From assembly GCA_913062675.1 (NCBI GenBank), contig CAJXWR010000001.1, forward strand, positions 1 to 34,491: DNA of 34,491 nt, given 5' to 3'. The notes below the pieces were generated by a model. It saw only the letters and a program-made list of their open reading frames with translations, did no database searches and was not told the origin of the DNA. A program made the translations under genes and the position numbers. Source of the stretch: an uncultured Trueperaceae bacterium. GTDB taxonomy: Bacteria > Deinococcota > Deinococci > Deinococcales > Trueperaceae. Below are positions 16,127 to 24,761 of this stretch, piece after piece. Position 1 is the stretch's first letter; every line of letters starts with the position of its first letter.

Positions 16127-17080
16127 TTAGGCATCGTCGAACAGTTCGGTACTGAGGTACCGCTCGAAGCCATCGGCGGCAAGCGCGACGACGACCTTGC
16201 CGGGGCCAAGTCGACGCGCCACGTCGAGCGCGGCGTGCAGCGTCGCACCGGAACTCATGCCGATCGACAGTCCCTCCTCGCGCATCGCGCGCCGCGCGAG
16301 CGGGAAGGCGTCCTCCTCGTACACGGCGATCACCTCATCGAGGACCCCCTGATCGAGGTTCTTGGGAATGAAGCCGGGTCCCATGCCCTGAAAGCGGTGC
16401 TGACCCTTCTCCCCCTTCGTGAGGATGGGACTCCGGGCCGGTTCCACCCCGACCACCTGCACCTTGGGGTTGCGGGCCTTGAGGGCACGCCCAATCCCGC
16501 TGATCGACCCGCCCGTCCCGGTGGCCCACACGAAGGCGTCGATGCGGCCCTGCATGTCCGCCCAAATCTCGGGGCCGGTGACGCGCTCGTGAATCGCGGG
16601 GTTGGCGGGGTTCTCGAACTGGTTCGGCATCCAGCCTCCCTCCGCCTCGAGGATGGCTTCGGCCTTGCCGATTGCACCCGGCATGCGCGCCTCGCCGGGC
16701 GTGAAGTGCAGTTCGGCTCCGTAGGCACGGAGGGTGGCGACACGCTCGCGACTCATGGAGTCGGGCAGGACGATGGTGCAGCGGTAGCCGCGCACGGCGG
16801 CGAGGAAGGCGAGACCAATGCCGGTGTTCCCGCTCGTTGGTTCGACGACGTGATCGCCCCGACCGGGGGTGAGGATGCCGCGCGCTTCCGCATCATCGAT
16901 CATGCCGAGCGCGGTGCGGTCCTTGATGGATCCGGCCGGGTTGAACCCCTCGAGCTTGATCCACACCTCGGCCATGTCGGGCTCCACGATGCGGTGGAGT
17001 CGCATGATCGGCGTGCGCCCAATGAGGGCGTCCATGCGGCGCGTGGGGGCTTGGACGTCCTCGGGTTCCTTGGGGTGCAT
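16127..17080 (-). CDS. Cysteine synthase (O-acetylserine sulfhydrylase), PLP-dependent
   Basis: Makes cysteine from O-acetylserine and sulfide, with pyridoxal phosphate. The 317 residues show the PLP lysine K53 in NPAGSIKDR, the substrate loop TSGNTG (82-87), the phosphate-binding GTGGSISG and a C-terminal SSGATLHAA serine loop. Length fits CysK/CysM. The leaderless ATG at 17080 is supported by TACCCT 6 nt upstream. No cysE lies nearby. CysM-type enzymes and cystathionine beta-synthases share these motifs, so I leave the gene symbol open. It is divergent from the mini-PspC gene across a region with strong palindromes. Confidence 0.93.
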   Translation of the reverse strand: MHPKEPEDVQAPTRRMDALIGRTPIMRLHRIVEPDMAEVWIKLEGFNPAGSIKDRTALGMIDDAEARGILTPGRGDHVVEPTSGNTGIGLAFLAAVRGYRCTIVLPDSMSRERVATLRAYGAELHFTPGEARMPGAIGKAEAILEAEGGWMPNQFENPANPAIHERVTGPEIWADMQGRIDAFVWATGTGGSISGIGRALKARNPKVQVVGVEPARSPILTKGEKGQHRFQGMGPGFIPKNLDQGVLDEVIAVYEEDAFPLARRAMREEGLSIGMSSGATLHAALDVARRLGPGKVVVALAADGFERYLSTELFDDA

Positions 17081-19149: not shown

Positions 19150-19587
19150 TCAGGTCCAGGGGATGAGGCTCTTGCCCCAGGGGGTGGCCCAGAGGATGAA
19201 CACGGCGGCCACGAGGTACCAGGTGAAGGCGCGGCGGTACTTGCCGCGGTCGTCCTTCGCGCGGCGGGCGAGCGAGGTGCCGAGCTGCGCGGCGACGACG
19301 GCGAGGATCATGGTCGTGGCGTGCTCGATGAGCATGAGGCGGCCCGTGAGCGGCGCGGTGATGCCGGCGGCGATGAGGGGCGTGAGGCCGTACAGCACGA
19401 TGCCGACAAGGAGTTGGGTGTGCATGCTGATGGTGAAGATGCGTGCCGCGCCGTCCTGCACGCCGGTCCAGGCGACCCGGGTGAAGACCCCGCGCGCCAC
19501 GAGGACGAGGGCGTAGGCGCCTCCAAGCACGACGACCCAGCGCAGGAGGTTGTGGAACCCTTTGAGGAATACGTAAAGCATGTCCAT
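19150..19587 (-). CDS. Four-TM conserved membrane protein, cytochrome b-like
   Basis: 145 residues, four transmembrane helices (about 14-34, 54-74, 82-104 and 120-136). It has His in FHNLLRW near residue 12, in SMHTQLLVG in helix 2 and in IEHATTM in helix 3. These positioned His residues resemble a small family sometimes annotated as cytochrome b, so heme binding is possible but not shown. The ATG at 19587 has TACACT 6 nt upstream; the upstream open frame overlaps the divergent gene and was rejected. It sits between, and opposite to, mnmD and the MnmC(o)-like gene; its stop is 19 bp from the mnmD stop. Confidence 0.78.
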   Translation of the reverse strand: MDMLYVFLKGFHNLLRWVVVLGGAYALVLVARGVFTRVAWTGVQDGAARIFTISMHTQLLVGIVLYGLTPLIAAGITAPLTGRLMLIEHATTMILAVVAAQLGTSLARRAKDDRGKYRRAFTWYLVAAVFILWATPWGKSLIPWT

Positions 19588-19593
19588 GACGCG

Positions 19594-19599
19594 AGTGTA
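19594..19599 (-). promoter_or_regulatory. -10 box TACACT, leaderless start of 4-TM gene
   Basis: TACACT on the minus strand lies 6 nt before the ATG at 19587 and only 17 bp from the divergent -10 box of the FAD gene. Confidence 0.68.
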
Positions 19600-19616
19600 C
19601 ACGGTGGTGACGGCGG

Positions 19617-19622
19617 TACCCT
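19617..19622 (+). promoter_or_regulatory. -10 box TACCCT, leaderless start of FAD gene
   Basis: TACCCT lies 5 nt before the GTG at 19628. The two divergent starts are only 40 bp apart. Confidence 0.6.
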
Positions 19623-19627
19623 GCGGC

Positions 19628-20689
19628 GTGGACGTCGATTCTCCCGTACCGGTGGACCTCGCGATCATCGGGGGTGGCGTGGCGGGCTTGTCGCTCGCGC
19701 GTGCCGCTGCGATGCAGGGAGCGCGCGTCGTGCTGCTGGAGCAGAGCGAGGACGCCGCGGTGGGTTGGCGGGGTGGTGGAGCGTCGAGCCTACCCGTCGC
19801 GCTTCTGAACCCATGGCGGGGGCGGAAGGGGGACGCGCACGAGGACGATCTTCGTGGCTTGGCGGTGACGTGGCGCTGGGCGGCGGAACTCGAGGGGGAG
19901 GGACTGGAGCCCGGTGCCGTGCGGACGGGCGTGCTGCGCATCCCGTCGAGTGCGCGGCAGGCTGCCTCGTGGCGGGAGCGGTGCGAGGCCGAGGCGAGCT
20001 TGATCTGGTTGCCGGCGGGCAGCGTCCCGGCGCCCTACCACGCGCCGTTCGGTGCGATGCAGGCGGAGGACGGGGGGCGCATCGACGCAGCTGCATGGCT
20101 GACTGCGCTCGCCGCTTCCGCAGCGCGGCATGGCGCCCAACTTCGCCAGGGCGTCGAGGTCCAGGCGGTCGAACATGGCGTCGAGGGCGCGTGGCGGGTG
20201 CGGGGTGAAGACGGTGGGATGCTCGTGGAAGCGTGGCGTGTGGTGAGCGCCGTCGGTGCGGATGCACCCCCCAGGGTGCAGGGGGGAGGCGAACCCGCCC
20301 CGTGGCCCACCTGGATTCGCACGCAGGGGGAAGAGGTTCGCATCACCGGGGTTCCCACCTTGCCTTGGCCCATTGCTGGAGGCTTGTACGGGGCGAGCGT
20401 GCAGGAGGGCGAAGCGTGGATTGGTGGGGGGCATCGGCCCTTGGGTGAGGACGATCCCTCCGCAGCCACGAACCTTCGCGATGCCTTCGCCTGGTCGTAC
20501 CCTCCCGTGGCTGAGGGAACCATTTTGGAGGTGTGGCACGGCGCACGAGCGAAACGGGAGGGAGCGAGACCCGACGTGCGCGAGGTCGCGCCCGGACTGT
20601 GGACGTTCGGCGCGTTCGCCGGTCGCGGTTTCCTGTGCGCCGCAGACGAGGCAGAACGCTTCGCGCGGCGCGTCAAGCCGATGCAGTAA
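19628..20689 (+). CDS. FAD-dependent oxidoreductase, MnmC(o)-like (DAO family)
   Basis: D-amino-acid-oxidase-type flavoprotein, 353 residues. The N-terminal FAD site is IIGGGVAGLSLARAA (13-27) with the acidic end VVLLEQ. The segment GWRGGGASSLPVALLNPWRG (about 45-64) matches the GAS...P.ALL.P stretch of the MnmC C-terminal oxidase. The C-terminus (GLWTFGAFAGRGFLCAADEAERFA) corresponds to the GLGSRGL-type end. Nearby mnmD suggests this is the detached partner that converts cmnm5U34 to nm5U34. Glycine oxidase/ThiO-like roles remain possible. The GTG start was chosen from the -10 spacing, and it starts just before the FAD fold. Confidence 0.78.
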   Translation: MDVDSPVPVDLAIIGGGVAGLSLARAAAMQGARVVLLEQSEDAAVGWRGGGASSLPVALLNPWRGRKGDAHEDDLRGLAVTWRWAAELEGEGLEPGAVRTGVLRIPSSARQAASWRERCEAEASLIWLPAGSVPAPYHAPFGAMQAEDGGRIDAAAWLTALAASAARHGAQLRQGVEVQAVEHGVEGAWRVRGEDGGMLVEAWRVVSAVGADAPPRVQGGGEPAPWPTWIRTQGEEVRITGVPTLPWPIAGGLYGASVQEGEAWIGGGHRPLGEDDPSAATNLRDAFAWSYPPVAEGTILEVWHGARAKREGARPDVREVAPGLWTFGAFAGRGFLCAADEAERFARRVKPMQ

Positions 20690-20896
20690 ACAACGATTGC
20701 CTGACCCGTTACCTGCCCGTCATCAGCGAAGAACGCTCGTTCGCAAGCATGGGCAGCGCGGCCATCCGCCTGGTCCATCTCCGCCACCGGTAACGGTCGG
20801 TTCATGTCGATCGGTCCCATCCGAACGTCCGCACTCCGCGCCAACATGCATGGGGCCGTTCCGATCCTTTCGTGAGGCTTCCGTTCCATGATCTGC
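20690..20896. other. Gap before the AbiE-like module
   Basis: About 207 bp with no supportable gene. Base composition looks slightly lower in GC than the flanks. The promoter repeats of the next gene begin at 20897. Confidence 0.4.
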
Positions 20897-20902
20897 TATG
20901 TT
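20897..20902 (+). promoter_or_regulatory. -10 box TATGTT, AbiE-like module
   Basis: TATGTT lies 7 nt before the ATG at 20910. An earlier in-frame ATG (20898) falls inside this box and has no ribosome-binding site, so 20910 is preferred. Confidence 0.55.
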
Positions 20903-20938
20903 CCACTTTATGAGGAACACGACGTTTTCTGGAACACG
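20899..20938. repeat. TGTTCC/GGAACA repeats across the module's start
   Basis: TGTTCC (20899-20904) and GGAACA (20914-20919) form an inverted repeat with a 9-bp spacer over the -10/start. A second GGAACACG (20931-20938) repeats the copy at 20914-20921, 17 bp apart. It is a candidate autoregulatory operator. Confidence 0.42.
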
Positions 20939-21959
20939 TGCGTTGCGGCGTGCCGTCGGCATCGTCGAGGAACGGCTCCCCCCACGATGGCGCATTGAAG
21001 CCAGCCTGACCCAACGCGAACCCCACATGACCATCGTGTCACCCGACGGCCAACGAGGAACGCTGGCCCTCACGGCGAAGGCGCACGTCGCTCCCCGTGA
21101 CGTGGCTGGCCTCAAGCAACGATTCGAAGATCGCGCACGCACCACGTTCCTCTTCGCCCCCTTCCTCAGCCCTCGGACCCGCGTACTTCTTACCGAAGCG
21201 GGCATCCACCATGCCGACGCCACAGGAAATCTCCGTCTGGTCATGACGGTTCCTGGCATCTTTCTCGAGGGACGCGGAGCGGATCGGAGTGAACACACGT
21301 CACCGAGGACCCTGAAGAGCTTGAAGGGTGCGGCAGCAGGACGCGTGGTGCGCGCGCTCGCGGACTTTCTACCCCCGTTCGGAATCCGACAACTCGCCGA
21401 GGCTTCCTTGACACCGGTTTCGACGGTGTCGCGCGTCGTCGACCTCCTCGATTCGGAAGCCCTCTTGACGCGCGACGCGAAGAAACGAATCGAGGACGTC
21501 GACTGGGTTCACCTACTCGAGCGTTGGATTGAGGATTACAGCCTCACGGGAAGCAATCTCGTCGTTTCCCACCTCGAGCCCCGAGGCGTACCTGCGTTGC
21601 TGAACCACCTATCGCGTCTCGACCGATATGCCGTTACGGGGTCTTTGGCAGCCACCGGGGTCACCTCCGCACGACTCGCCATGGTGTTCGTCGAGGATGC
21701 GATCGAGGCGGCAGAAATCCTCGAGCTCGAGCCCGTAGATGATGGAGCCAACGTGTGGCTGATCGAACCCTTCGATGCCGTCGTCTTCGATCGAACACGT
21801 TGGATTACCCCCGCGTCACGGAGTACGCCTATCGTCACAGCCGCTCCGACTCAGGTCGTGGCAGATCTTTGGACGAGTCCCGGGCGTGGACCCCAAGAAG
21901 CCTCGGCCCTCATCCAGGAAATGCGGAGATCCGAGAATGCATGGAGGACCGACCCCTGA
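20910..21959 (+). CDS. Winged-helix AbiEi-like antitoxin/regulator
   Basis: 349 residues. An N-terminal domain (1-140) holds GIHHADATGNLRLVM (99-112) and a GADRSE motif, typical of a widespread, mostly unstudied actinobacterial family. A winged-helix domain follows (about 143-190: GRVVRALADFLPPFGIRQLAE, then STVSRVVDLLDSEALL). The C-terminal part (200-349, YAVTGSLAATG, GANVWLIEPFDAVVFDRT) resembles the AbiEi C-terminal domain. The next gene overlaps by 23 nt and encodes a nucleotidyltransferase, as in type IV AbiE systems, where the first protein is a DNA-binding antitoxin that represses the operon. That role is inference here. Confidence 0.68.
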   Translation: MRNTTFSGTRALRRAVGIVEERLPPRWRIEASLTQREPHMTIVSPDGQRGTLALTAKAHVAPRDVAGLKQRFEDRARTTFLFAPFLSPRTRVLLTEAGIHHADATGNLRLVMTVPGIFLEGRGADRSEHTSPRTLKSLKGAAAGRVVRALADFLPPFGIRQLAEASLTPVSTVSRVVDLLDSEALLTRDAKKRIEDVDWVHLLERWIEDYSLTGSNLVVSHLEPRGVPALLNHLSRLDRYAVTGSLAATGVTSARLAMVFVEDAIEAAEILELEPVDDGANVWLIEPFDAVVFDRTRWITPASRSTPIVTAAPTQVVADLWTSPGRGPQEASALIQEMRRSENAWRTDP

Positions 21960-22758
21960 CCCAGCGTACGTAGGCGCACGCACCGTCCTGCTTGACGTGC
22001 TCGAGTATCTCAACGTCCATCGCGATTCGGTCATTCTGGTTGGAGCCCAAGCCATCTATCTGCACGTGGGCGACGACGACCTCGCCATCGCTCCACATAC
22101 GACCGATGGCGACCTGGTGATCGACCCCAATCGTCTCCTCGATGAACCACGCTTGAGCACGCTGCTGGCGCAGGCTGGCTTTACCCTTGCGATTCGCCCC
22201 GGCACTTGGCGACGGCATGACGTTCCCATCGACCTTCTCGTTCCTACGGCGCTCGCAGGGCCCGGGCGGCGAGGCGCGAGGCTCGGACCTCACGGAAACG
22301 ACGTGGCGCGACGCGCGGCTGGTCTCGAAGCGACTCTCGTGGACCATGCCCACATGCGGATTCGTTCACTCGAACGAACCGACGTGCGCGAATTCGATGT
22401 TCGCGTTGCAGGTGTCGCTAGCCTCCTCGTTGCCAAGGTTCACAAGCTCGCAGAGCGCCAACACGATGTCCGAAGACTCGAGGCGAAGGACGCGCTCGAC
22501 GTCCTCCGACTCTTGCGGCACAGTCCGACAGCGGATCTTGCACGAACACTCGCACGCCTCGAACGCGATCCGCTCGCAGGCGTGTCGACGACGGAAGCAA
22601 GAACGTTGTTGGCCGCCATGTTTGGAAGCCGCGATGGCGTTGGTGCATCGATGGCCGCTCACGCGACCGTCGGACTCGAGAATGCAGACACGGTCAGGCA
22701 GTCATGCGAAGTCTTGACGAAACGATTGATGAACGCCTGGGGCGCCCAACGAGACTAG
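21937..22758 (+). CDS. AbiEii-like nucleotidyltransferase toxin candidate
   Basis: 273 residues. Nucleotidyltransferase-like core: ILVGAQAIYLHVG (33-45) replacing the GG-S/A motif, then TTDGDLVID with D57 and D59 as metal-binding acids, then VPIDLLVP with D99 as a third acid. A C-terminal helical part has LLVAKVHKLAERQ and EAKDALDVLRLLR, recalling the K...D basic segment of AbiEii. AbiEii toxins act as GTP-using nucleotidyltransferases, bacteriostatic or abortive on phage infection. The ATG at 21937 has GGAG 8 nt upstream and overlaps the first gene by 23 nt. It is a toxin by analogy; the target is unknown. Confidence 0.65.
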   Translation: MHGGPTPDPAYVGARTVLLDVLEYLNVHRDSVILVGAQAIYLHVGDDDLAIAPHTTDGDLVIDPNRLLDEPRLSTLLAQAGFTLAIRPGTWRRHDVPIDLLVPTALAGPGRRGARLGPHGNDVARRAAGLEATLVDHAHMRIRSLERTDVREFDVRVAGVASLLVAKVHKLAERQHDVRRLEAKDALDVLRLLRHSPTADLARTLARLERDPLAGVSTTEARTLLAAMFGSRDGVGASMAAHATVGLENADTVRQSCEVLTKRLMNAWGAQRD

Positions 22759-22878
22759 GGTCACGCGATTGCGACCAGCGGACGGACAACCATGTGGAAC
22801 CCCTTAGCGCCTCCCTCGGGCGCGAACACCGCCCTTCGCCCACTCGAGATAGGCCATCACGCCGCACGCCGATACGAT

Positions 22879-23073
22879 TCACACGCCTTGCGAGCGCTCC
22901 TCCCAGCCCCCACAACGGTGAATCGGTTGGGGCGGGTACTTCGGGAGTCGCGGGTGGTCACAGCGCAGGAACACCGAGTCCTTCGCGGAGGTAATGACGC
23001 GCGCGAAGGCGCAGGACGCACACACGCCACCCCGAGCGGCCCGTTGTAGCGCAGCGGCGTCGTCGGGCGTCAC
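22879..23073 (-). CDS. Small cysteine-rich protein, 64 aa, putative zinc-binding
   Basis: 64 residues with C18-x2-C21, C38 and C54, a spacing that could hold one zinc. The pattern VCASCAFARVI, then SAKDSVFLRC and RLPKYPPQP, then RCGGW recurs, as far as I recall, in small conserved proteins of other GC-rich bacteria, which is why I count it as real. It is probably translated from the GTG at 23073, 13 nt after the stop of the preceding minus-strand gene, so they form an operon. No ribosome-binding site is clear. Function unknown. Confidence 0.7.
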   Translation of the reverse strand: MTPDDAAALQRAARGGVCASCAFARVITSAKDSVFLRCDHPRLPKYPPQPIHRCGGWEERSQGV

Positions 23074-23086
23074 GGGAACGTTCGCG

Positions 23087-23476
23087 TCAAACGCGCGGCA
23101 AGGCGAACAGCTCGTCGGTCAGGTGCTCGAGCGCAGCGCGGGTGAACGGCCGCCGACCCTCCACGAGACCGCCCCTCTCCTTCGCGAGGGTGAGCTTGCG
23201 GTACGCGTGCGAATCGACCGGGTGCATCACGATTTCCTTGAACACCGTGTGCCGCGGACTGGCATTGACGAGCAGAATCGGGCGACCGTCCGGAAGCGAC
23301 AGGCTGGCCGACATCACGGTCGTCGGAAGGTCGTAGGGTCGCTCCATCCGGTAGATGTAATCCGGAAAGTCCGCCTCCTTCTCGAAGTGCACACCCTCCC
23401 GCGCGTCGGCCACCTCGCGCATCCACGAGAGCAGTTCCACCCATGCCGCATAGAAGGCCTTGTCTTGATCCGTCAT
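23087..23476 (-). CDS. Conserved protein of unknown function, 129 aa
   Basis: Soluble alpha/beta protein without signal or membrane segments. It carries several aromatic and charged residues (FYAAWVELLSWMREV, DFPDYIYRMERPYDLP, then HTVFKEIVMHPVDSHAYRKL). I cannot place it in a family. Leaderless ATG at 23476 with TACACT 6 nt upstream fixes the start. A 14-bp palindrome lies over its -35 region, so expression may be regulated. The cysteine-rich gene follows in the same operon. Confidence 0.78.
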   Translation of the reverse strand: MTDQDKAFYAAWVELLSWMREVADAREGVHFEKEADFPDYIYRMERPYDLPTTVMSASLSLPDGRPILLVNASPRHTVFKEIVMHPVDSHAYRKLTLAKERGGLVEGRRPFTRAALEHLTDELFALPRV

Positions 23477-23482
23477 GGTGCG

Positions 23483-23488
23483 AGTGTA
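23483..23488 (-). promoter_or_regulatory. -10 box TACACT, leaderless start of 23476 gene
   Basis: TACACT on the minus strand is 6 nt before the ATG at 23476. Confidence 0.7.
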
Positions 23489-23506
23489 GCGCGCCCGGGC
23501 GGGACG

Positions 23507-23520
23507 CACGTCCGGACGTG
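23507..23520. promoter_or_regulatory. 14-bp perfect palindrome CACGTCCGGACGTG
   Basis: It lies 18-31 bp upstream of the -10 box of the 23476 gene, overlapping the -35 position, and 9 bp past the P450 stop. It is a candidate operator. A loopless palindrome is an unlikely terminator. Confidence 0.45.
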
Positions 23521-23528
23521 AAGCATCC

Positions 23529-24761
23529 TCAGGCACGCACGCGCAACTCGGTCAAGTAGCGAAACACGTTCTTCGGCACGTACGTGAAGTCCTCCTGCGC
23601 GAGCTGCAGGTTGGGGAAGCGATCGAGCAGCGCATTGACCGAGCGACCGAGCTCGAGACGAGCCAACGGAGCGCCAATGCAGTAGTGGAGCCCCAGGCCA
23701 AAGGCGAGGTGCGGATTGGGACTGCGCGTCACGTCGAACACCGTCGGCTCGGCGAACACGGCGGGATCGTGGTTGGCCGAGGCGTAGTACAGCGCAAGTT
23801 TCGTGCCAGCTTCGAACGTGTGGGTACTGCCGTCGTCCGCGTCGAAGGTGAACGGTTCGAGGACGAAGCGTTCGAAGAACTGCAGCGGCGTATCGAAGCG
23901 CATCATCTCCTCCACCGCCGTGGGGACGAGCTCCCGGTCGGCGCGCACGAGGGCAAGCTGGTCCTCGTGGGTGAGGAGCGCCTTCATGCCGTTCCCGAGC
24001 ACGTTGACGACCGCCTCGTGTCCCGCGTTGAGGAAGAGAATGCCGTTGGCGACGATCTCATCCTCACTGATTCGCGTTCCGTCCTCCGCCTGAACGTACA
24101 CCATGCGACTGATCAGGTCATCGCCCGGCTCACGGCGTTTGATTTCGGCAAGGTGACGCAGGTAGGCGGAGAAGTCGCGGGCGGCGTCCACCGCAGCCGC
24201 TTCACTCTCGGGCGTGCGTTCAGGTTCGAACATGCCGATGATGGCTTTCGACCAGGGGAGGAGTTGATGCCGGTCGGCCTCAGGAACGCCCAGCAGGTCG
24301 GCAATGACGGTGACGGGGATGGGTTCCGCAAACGTGGTGATGACGTCCGCCTGCCCCGCCTCGGCGATGGCGGTCGCGAGCGCATCCGCTTGCGTGCGGG
24401 CGAGCGTCTCGATGCGGTCCGCGAGGGCGCGCACGTGCTTGGGCGTGAAGACGTCGTGCACCACCTGCTTGATGCGGGTGTGGTCGGGCGGCTCAATTTC
24501 GAGCAGCGACCCGGCCTGGATACGGTCGAACGGTTCGTGCGCCGGGTTGGGGGGACGCTTCTCCACGCCGTCCATGACCCGCCCGAGCCGCTTGTCGCGC
24601 AGCAGGCGATCCACGTCGCGGTAGCGCGTCACGACGAGCGCCTCCCAGGGAGCGTGCCAATGAAGCGGCGACGATTCTCGCAGCATGCGGTAGGTGGGGT
24701 ACGGGTCGTACAGGAAGGCAGAATCGGTGGGGTCGAAACGGACGGCGCCTGGGTCGGTCAT
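23529..24761 (-). CDS. Cytochrome P450, bacterial soluble class
   Basis: Heme monooxygenase of 410 residues. The heme-binding loop FGLGLHYCIGAPLAR (354-368) includes C361; the K-helix ExxR motif is E285-M-M-R288. The I-helix reads LNAGHEAVVN (244-253), so the usual acid-alcohol pair is broken: Glu 249 is present but there is Ala at 250 and Val at 251 where Thr is expected. This suggests atypical oxygen activation or peroxygenase-like chemistry. No ferredoxin or reductase is next to it. Leaderless ATG 24761. Confidence 0.93.
   Translation of the reverse strand: MTDPGAVRFDPTDSAFLYDPYPTYRMLRESSPLHWHAPWEALVVTRYRDVDRLLRDKRLGRVMDGVEKRPPNPAHEPFDRIQAGSLLEIEPPDHTRIKQVVHDVFTPKHVRALADRIETLARTQADALATAIAEAGQADVITTFAEPIPVTVIADLLGVPEADRHQLLPWSKAIIGMFEPERTPESEAAAVDAARDFSAYLRHLAEIKRREPGDDLISRMVYVQAEDGTRISEDEIVANGILFLNAGHEAVVNVLGNGMKALLTHEDQLALVRADRELVPTAVEEMMRFDTPLQFFERFVLEPFTFDADDGSTHTFEAGTKLALYYASANHDPAVFAEPTVFDVTRSPNPHLAFGLGLHYCIGAPLARLELGRSVNALLDRFPNLQLAQEDFTYVPKNVFRYLTELRVRA

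Follow-up and report, generated by a model that had tools for sequence, protein, structure and literature searches.

In classical AbiE systems (COG5340–COG2253), the nucleotidyltransferase (NTase) AbiEii owes its toxicity to its NTase motifs, and AbiEi uses inverted repeats to repress its own promoter (PMC3985639). A second type of pair, COG4861–COG4849 (PF09952–PF08843), includes M. tuberculosis Rv0836c–Rv0837c (MenAT2); the COG names used here were carried over via Pfam links and papers, with the PF09952–COG4861 link taken from PMC7251935. The COG4861-type half of AbiE was recognised in 2014 and, as far as the literature we searched shows, no COG4861-type antitoxin has a solved structure, operator or mechanism. 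We know of no wet-lab toxicity evidence that settles the mechanism of such pairs. MenT toxins transfer nucleotides onto tRNA. Two of them, MenT1 and MenT3, are silenced by their antitoxins, which induce auto-phosphorylation of the toxin at T39 and S78, respectively. T39 lies with D41 in the MenT1 active-site loop, and MenT4, from the same superfamily, shows no auto-phosphorylation (PMC11375011).

Here we describe a gene pair in a 34,491-nt stretch of DNA (the window) from an uncultured Trueperaceae bacterium, the genome of which is a draft of 196 contigs and about 90% complete. Profile comparisons indicate that the pair is almost certainly a divergent, unannotated branch of the AbiEi_2–AbiEii type IV toxin–antitoxin (TA) class. 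As a whole, we favor the explanation that it is a self-regulating TA operon of this class, to which we give a probability of roughly 0.7. New here are a predicted four-half-site operator for the family, a nuclease-like domain (D...ExK) at the antitoxin N-terminus that has decayed in the window, a relative that keeps only the antitoxin C-terminal domain, joined to a different DNA-binding domain, a Thr that is invariant and corresponds to the MenT auto-phosphorylation site, and an empty insertion site in four congeners.

Class, spread and arrival of the gene pair

The module consists of two overlapping genes within an inserted segment:
20898–21959, + strand: first gene, the predicted antitoxin/regulator (the partner) of the AbiEi_2 (COG4861-type) class; 353 residues, three domains
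21937–22758, + strand: second gene, NTase and proposed toxin, starting at ATG 21937; 273 residues, COG4849/AbiEii-like, pol-beta fold
21937–21959, + strand: overlap of the two reading frames, 23 nt
20690–22910, no strand: inserted segment with the whole module, missing in four congeners

The inner ATG at 20910 is as plausible a start for the first gene as 20898. A sequence-only reading of the window had pointed to an AbiE-like order, antitoxin then NTase, in a divergent module with a 23-nt overlap; the order and divergence were borne out and the overlap is exact. A scan of 20500–23200 for sigma-70 promoters and terminators found none. Elsewhere in the window, ARAGORN called a tRNA-like gene (16640–16731) in which the anticodon could not be read; the call is probably spurious.

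In profile comparisons with hhalign, the partner family matched AbiEi_2-type antitoxins over its full length at 99.9% (E 6.7e-38, 335–336 columns) and the NTase family matched AbiEi_2-linked NTases at 97.4–98.2% (E 3.3e-14 at 98.2%), while the crossed control gave 0.5%. The AbiEi_2 set comprised PF09952 proteins from other genomes of the phylum and from plasmids. By contrast, classical AbiEi, represented by proteins upstream of PF08843 toxins in the same family of genomes, gave 0.4% with the partner, and classical AbiEii gave 13% with the NTase. These comparisons place the module in the COG4861–COG4849-type class rather than in classical AbiE; the partner, first taken for an atypical classical AbiEi, is by this measure not homologous to COG5340 AbiEi. 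With the COG4861–COG4849 pairs the module shares gene order, a three-domain partner that is homologous over its full length, and the NTase superfamily and motifs (PMC3985639, PMC3968373). It differs from them in having only about 20% identity, in falling mostly under Pfam cut-offs and being unnamed, and in an hGA motif I that lies further from the DxD. Classical AbiE resembles the module in operon order, short overlap, the combination of a winged helix-turn-helix (wHTH) regulator with a pol-beta NTase, and an inverted-repeat operator over the promoter (PMC3985639, PMC7319586), but the three-domain partner lacks profile similarity to AbiEi and the NTases are only weakly related.

Taken alone, the window NTase matched AbiEii (PF08843) with an E-value of 0.0022, under the Pfam cut-off, and the window partner gave a weak MarR match and none to PF09952; neither protein had a meaningful PADLOC or NCBIfam match. 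Across the family, NTP_transf_8 (PF12281) was matched by 43/77 NTases and AbiEii by 6/77, and AbiEi_2 (PF09952) was matched by 22/77 partners. The window's own genome contains three more PF08843 matches, on contigs C151, C14 and C95, and upstream of the C151 match lies a classical AbiEi-like gene. Another genome of the same family has what appears to be the remnant of a pair of AbiEi_2 antitoxin and NTase, beside a TetR-type gene (locus L090, 1408–2810).

A single scan of public genomes yielded 191 confirmed NTase relatives, from which 80 loci were kept, and the NTase was also present in 19 plasmid records, mostly from Streptomyces. The family had been described as hypothetical and largely actinobacterial, and indeed 46 of the 69 phylum-labelled tree rows are Actinomycetota and most members are annotated as hypothetical. 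Other relatives come from Myxococcota, Acidobacteriota, Chloroflexota, Pseudomonadota and further phyla; in the window's own phylum the NTase was found in 2/111 genomes. Pairing of the two genes, proposed earlier as a check, is far above chance. The partner occupies the adjacent upstream ORF at 87/88 related loci, and the frames overlap in 74 of 84 measured pairs (the window counting twice, as L001 is its copy), most commonly by 23 nt, with the rest at most 43 nt apart. Partner and NTase distances between loci are correlated (rho 0.71; permutation maximum 0.15).

In four of four congeners (G104–G107) the flanking genes, an FAD-oxidoreductase-like gene at 19580–20689 and a gene at 23087–23536, are direct neighbors separated by 38–250 nt. 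In blastn alignments to these empty sites homology breaks off around the FAD gene's end and picks up again at ~22911–22924. The partner and NTase genes have GC3 values of 0.68 and 0.65 versus 0.79–0.94 for the five flanking genes measured, and the module GC is 0.62–0.64 versus 0.667 for the window, in keeping with the slightly lower GC, more mixed codon use and transfer suspected at the outset. Given the empty site and the lower GC3, a ~2.2-kb segment with just this module appears, in this one assembly, to have been gained as a unit; a binning artefact of the flanks is made less likely by the presence of the empty site in four congeners. The nearest relative comes from a Myxococcota MAG (55% over 613 columns) and not from the other member found in the same family of genomes. 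No target-site duplication was noticed at the insertion junctions. A phage-borne origin is unsupported, with no relatives in IMG/VR or phage collections.

Classical AbiE confers phage resistance (PMC3985639) and some COG4861-type pairs adjoin HerA/DUF4297 or TrlF genes, which raises the possibility, in our view a doubtful one, that the module is mainly an anti-phage abortive-infection system. In a neighborhood survey counted without a background control, a few neighbors of family members matched PADLOC models, but most were ordinary metabolic genes. The window neighbors, as read from sequence, are an FAD oxidoreductase, a small conserved gene, a P450 and UvrD, and the absence of relatives from phages and IMG/VR also speaks against a mainly anti-phage role. 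Of the two roles first suggested, membership of a TA class is supported by homology, whereas anti-phage evidence was not found in phages, IMG/VR, PADLOC searches with the window proteins or the neighborhoods, which held no consistent defense genes. The PADLOC model PDC-M21B gave weak matches in 4/77 relatives, and no relevant PADLOC model matched the window proteins. Two COG4861-type pairs lie directly upstream of, respectively, HerA/DUF4297 anti-phage genes (L125) and a TrlF ATPase gene (L128).

The nucleotidyltransferase

The NTase carries the following conserved elements:
22099–22113, + strand: T55-x-D57-x-D59, the metal-binding DxD with a candidate auto-phosphorylation Thr; T, D and D in 77/77
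22231–22233, + strand: D99, third catalytic Asp; 77/77
22435–22458, + strand: motif III, K167-x2-K170-x3-R174, with a spacing that fits KLxAaxxR (PMC3985639)
22486–22500, + strand: motif IV, K184-D185-x-x-D188, which fits +DxxD (PMC3985639)

Residues G36, T55, D57, D59, D99, K167, K170, R174, K184, D185 and D188 are invariant in all 77 aligned relatives, and include the DxD pair and third Asp noted in the sequence-only reading. The spacings of motifs III and IV in DUF1814/COG4849 proteins were given by Dy et al. 2014 (PMC3985639). Motif I reads hGA versus the hG[G/S] pattern, an Ala that has been noted in some homologues (PMC3985639); the DxD is kept as D57-x-D59, and the motif II Arg of classical AbiEii is absent from the window NTase. 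The altered motif I and the lost Arg both weigh against the favored TA explanation, as does a best structural match other than MenT. The predicted model (mean pLDDT 95.3; plasmid-record rows were left out of the alignments used for structure modelling) has as its best fold matches, with modest E-values, the aminoglycoside nucleotidyltransferase ANT(2'')-Ia, FKRP and CCA-adding enzymes, and so provides the structural match to nucleotidyltransferases that had been looked for. A profile search of PDB sequences with the NTase returned no credible match. MenT was absent both from the profile-search matches of the NTase and from its listed fold matches.

As ANT(2'')-Ia and FKRP are the best structural matches, the NTase could be a non-toxic, ANT(2'')-like enzyme that modifies small molecules or serves a housekeeping function under a local repressor. 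We regard this as improbable, however, because the AbiEii-specific motifs III and IV are invariant, the closest profile families are AbiEii-type toxins beside AbiEi_2 antitoxins, and the scattered distribution of the NTase in the phylum, together with movement of the two genes as a pair, better suits a TA module. From homology together with the invariant residues, the likeliest role of the NTase is that of a toxin that acts on tRNA or other RNA, and toxin–antitoxin behavior of the module is, from its sequence relationships, quite probable. In Rhodococcus opacus PD630 (L006, 3956–4951) a frameshift interrupts the NTase shortly ahead of motif IV and the partner is intact; two separate PD630 records give this NTase in two pieces. 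A broken NTase with an intact partner would be expected if, of the two genes, it is the NTase that carries the cost.

The NTase resembles MenT1 and MenT3 in its S/T-x-D-x-D active-site loop and its Lys and Asp motifs, and differs from MenT in having ANT(2'')-Ia and FKRP as best structural neighbors. T55, a Thr in 77/77 relatives, precedes the first Asp of the DxD by two residues and lies at the position of MenT1 T39 and MenT3 S78. By analogy from this one residue, phosphorylation of T55 is conceivable, though we would not bet on it. With this single invariant Thr, the MenT auto-phosphorylation model can be tested outside M. tuberculosis.

The three-domain partner

The predicted partner model (pLDDT 94.2) has three domains rather than the two described in the sequence-only reading:
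20925–21302, + strand: N-terminal PD-(D/E)XK-like domain, residues ~10–135, with a match to EndoMS
21315–21542, + strand: wHTH, residues ~140–215, with the recognition helix near residues 174–186
21543–21956, + strand: C-terminal domain, residues 216–353, proposed to bind the toxin and provide antitoxicity

The winged helix recognized earlier is corroborated by matches of relatives to HTH_IclR, MarR and HTH_Crp and of the model to Crp/MarR structures. Among PDB folds, EndoMS, a PD-(D/E)XK nuclease, is the best match of the whole partner, ahead of IclR, Crp and MarR regulators, and the core order of the N-terminal domain in the model is alpha-beta-beta-beta-alpha-beta; a profile search of PDB sequences with the partner found wHTH proteins only. 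The D...(D/E)xK triad is present in 60/77 partners when close substitutes are allowed and as a strict D-E-K in 42/77. In the window partner it has decayed to E41/T59/K61, and it is also lost in 16 other partners. The D107-x-T-G-N motif is nearly invariant among the 77 partners and is kept in the window.

An improbable reading of these features is that the partner is a sensor–repressor, in which the nuclease-like domain, catalytically worn in some members with D-x-T-G-N nearly always kept, would sense foreign or damaged DNA and free the C-terminal domain from the NTase, while the wHTH would time the synthesis of the partner itself from a four-half-site operator. If true, this would place a DNA-sensing trigger inside a type IV-like antitoxin, an arrangement undescribed for AbiE as far as the literature searched shows.

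In Brevibacterium plasmid pAP13 (L009, 3020–3980), an Xre-type HTH protein is encoded upstream of a family NTase. It has lost the nuclease-like domain and the wHTH and has kept the family C-terminal domain, with similarity at E 7.5e-10 and a further 7.1e-9 in the next small overlapping ORF. Since the C-terminal domain is the sole part of the partner that always accompanies the NTase, we infer that it is the antitoxic part; this natural domain-swapped antitoxin localises the proposed antitoxic domain. At a separate locus (L055, 6014–7180), a second, distant partner-like protein with wHTH and C-terminal similarity is encoded downstream of the module, with no family NTase beside it.

Reversed roles, with the partner a toxin by virtue of its PD-(D/E)XK-like domain and the NTase neutralising it by modification, have a precedent for a nucleotidyltransferase antitoxin in HEPN/MNT (PMC7641770) and would accord with the triad kept in 60/77 partners, but are very unlikely because the nuclease triad decays, in the window among others, and the NTase residues do not, the L009 partner has no nuclease-like domain at all, and where a broken gene was seen, it was the NTase and not the partner.

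In the favored reading, a self-regulating TA operon, the partner would bind its operator through the wHTH and repress its own operon, while its C-terminal domain would contact the NTase and hold it in an inactive state, perhaps by moving T55 closer to a bound NTP such that T55 auto-phosphorylates, as in MenT1 and MenT3. Upon loss or titration of the partner, the NTase would add nucleotides to RNA, most likely tRNA 3' ends, and growth would stop. The eventual role could be phage defense or the maintenance of mobile DNA.

A predicted operator at the antitoxin start

A predicted operator lies across the start of the first gene:
20883–20936, no strand: predicted four-half-site operator, spanning the antitoxin start
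20883–20887: half-site GTTCC
20899–20904: half-site TGTTCC
20914–20919: half-site GGAACA
20931–20936: half-site GGAACA

Its design is a TGTTCC-N9-GGAACA core flanked by more copies at 17–18 nt. When the best inverted repeat near the partner start was taken at each locus, strong repeats were found in 25% of loci versus 0.9% of shuffled sequences. TGTT-N13-AACA, exactly 21 bp long, is present in 24/81 upstream regions, whereas TGTT/AACA repeats of other lengths (15 to 29) are found in at most 2/81, and intragenic control stretches gave 0/81; the looser GTT-N13-AAC occurs in 52% versus 1%. Among 43 loci with sites chosen by their center alone, outer half-sites stand at exactly 17 nt in 24 cases on the left and 19 on the right and at 18 nt in 10 and 12 cases, and almost never at other offsets. 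Half-sites within a locus tend to belong to one class, GTTCC, GTTGC or GTTTC, and aligning 11 loci from several phyla makes the four-half-site pattern plain.

The 2.5-Mb genome has a single copy of the exact 21-bp core, copies with one mismatch stay at the background level, and for this reason the predicted operator looks like a dedicated autoregulatory site. Autoregulation of the operon by the partner is, from this sequence pattern, very probable. At 24 of the 43 site-bearing loci the operator overlaps the start codon or lies directly next to it, and a leaderless transcript is possible. The half-sites of the module are spaced 17, 15 and 17 nt apart, in contrast to the 23-bp repeats 3 bp apart of classical AbiE. 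Upstream of the COG4861-type loci checked, no TGTTCC-type operator was found apart from one doubtful site (L143). The branch supplies a widespread unannotated family together with a predicted operator precise enough for a gel-shift test.

Among the 353 positions of the partner, 176 shows the strongest and 173 the third-strongest association with the variable base of the operator; both open the predicted recognition helix, and Y176 is present in 9/9 TGTTGC loci. On the tree this association, although strong, traces to one to three independent events; with so few events a recognition-helix code for the operator base is suggestive only and confounded by descent.
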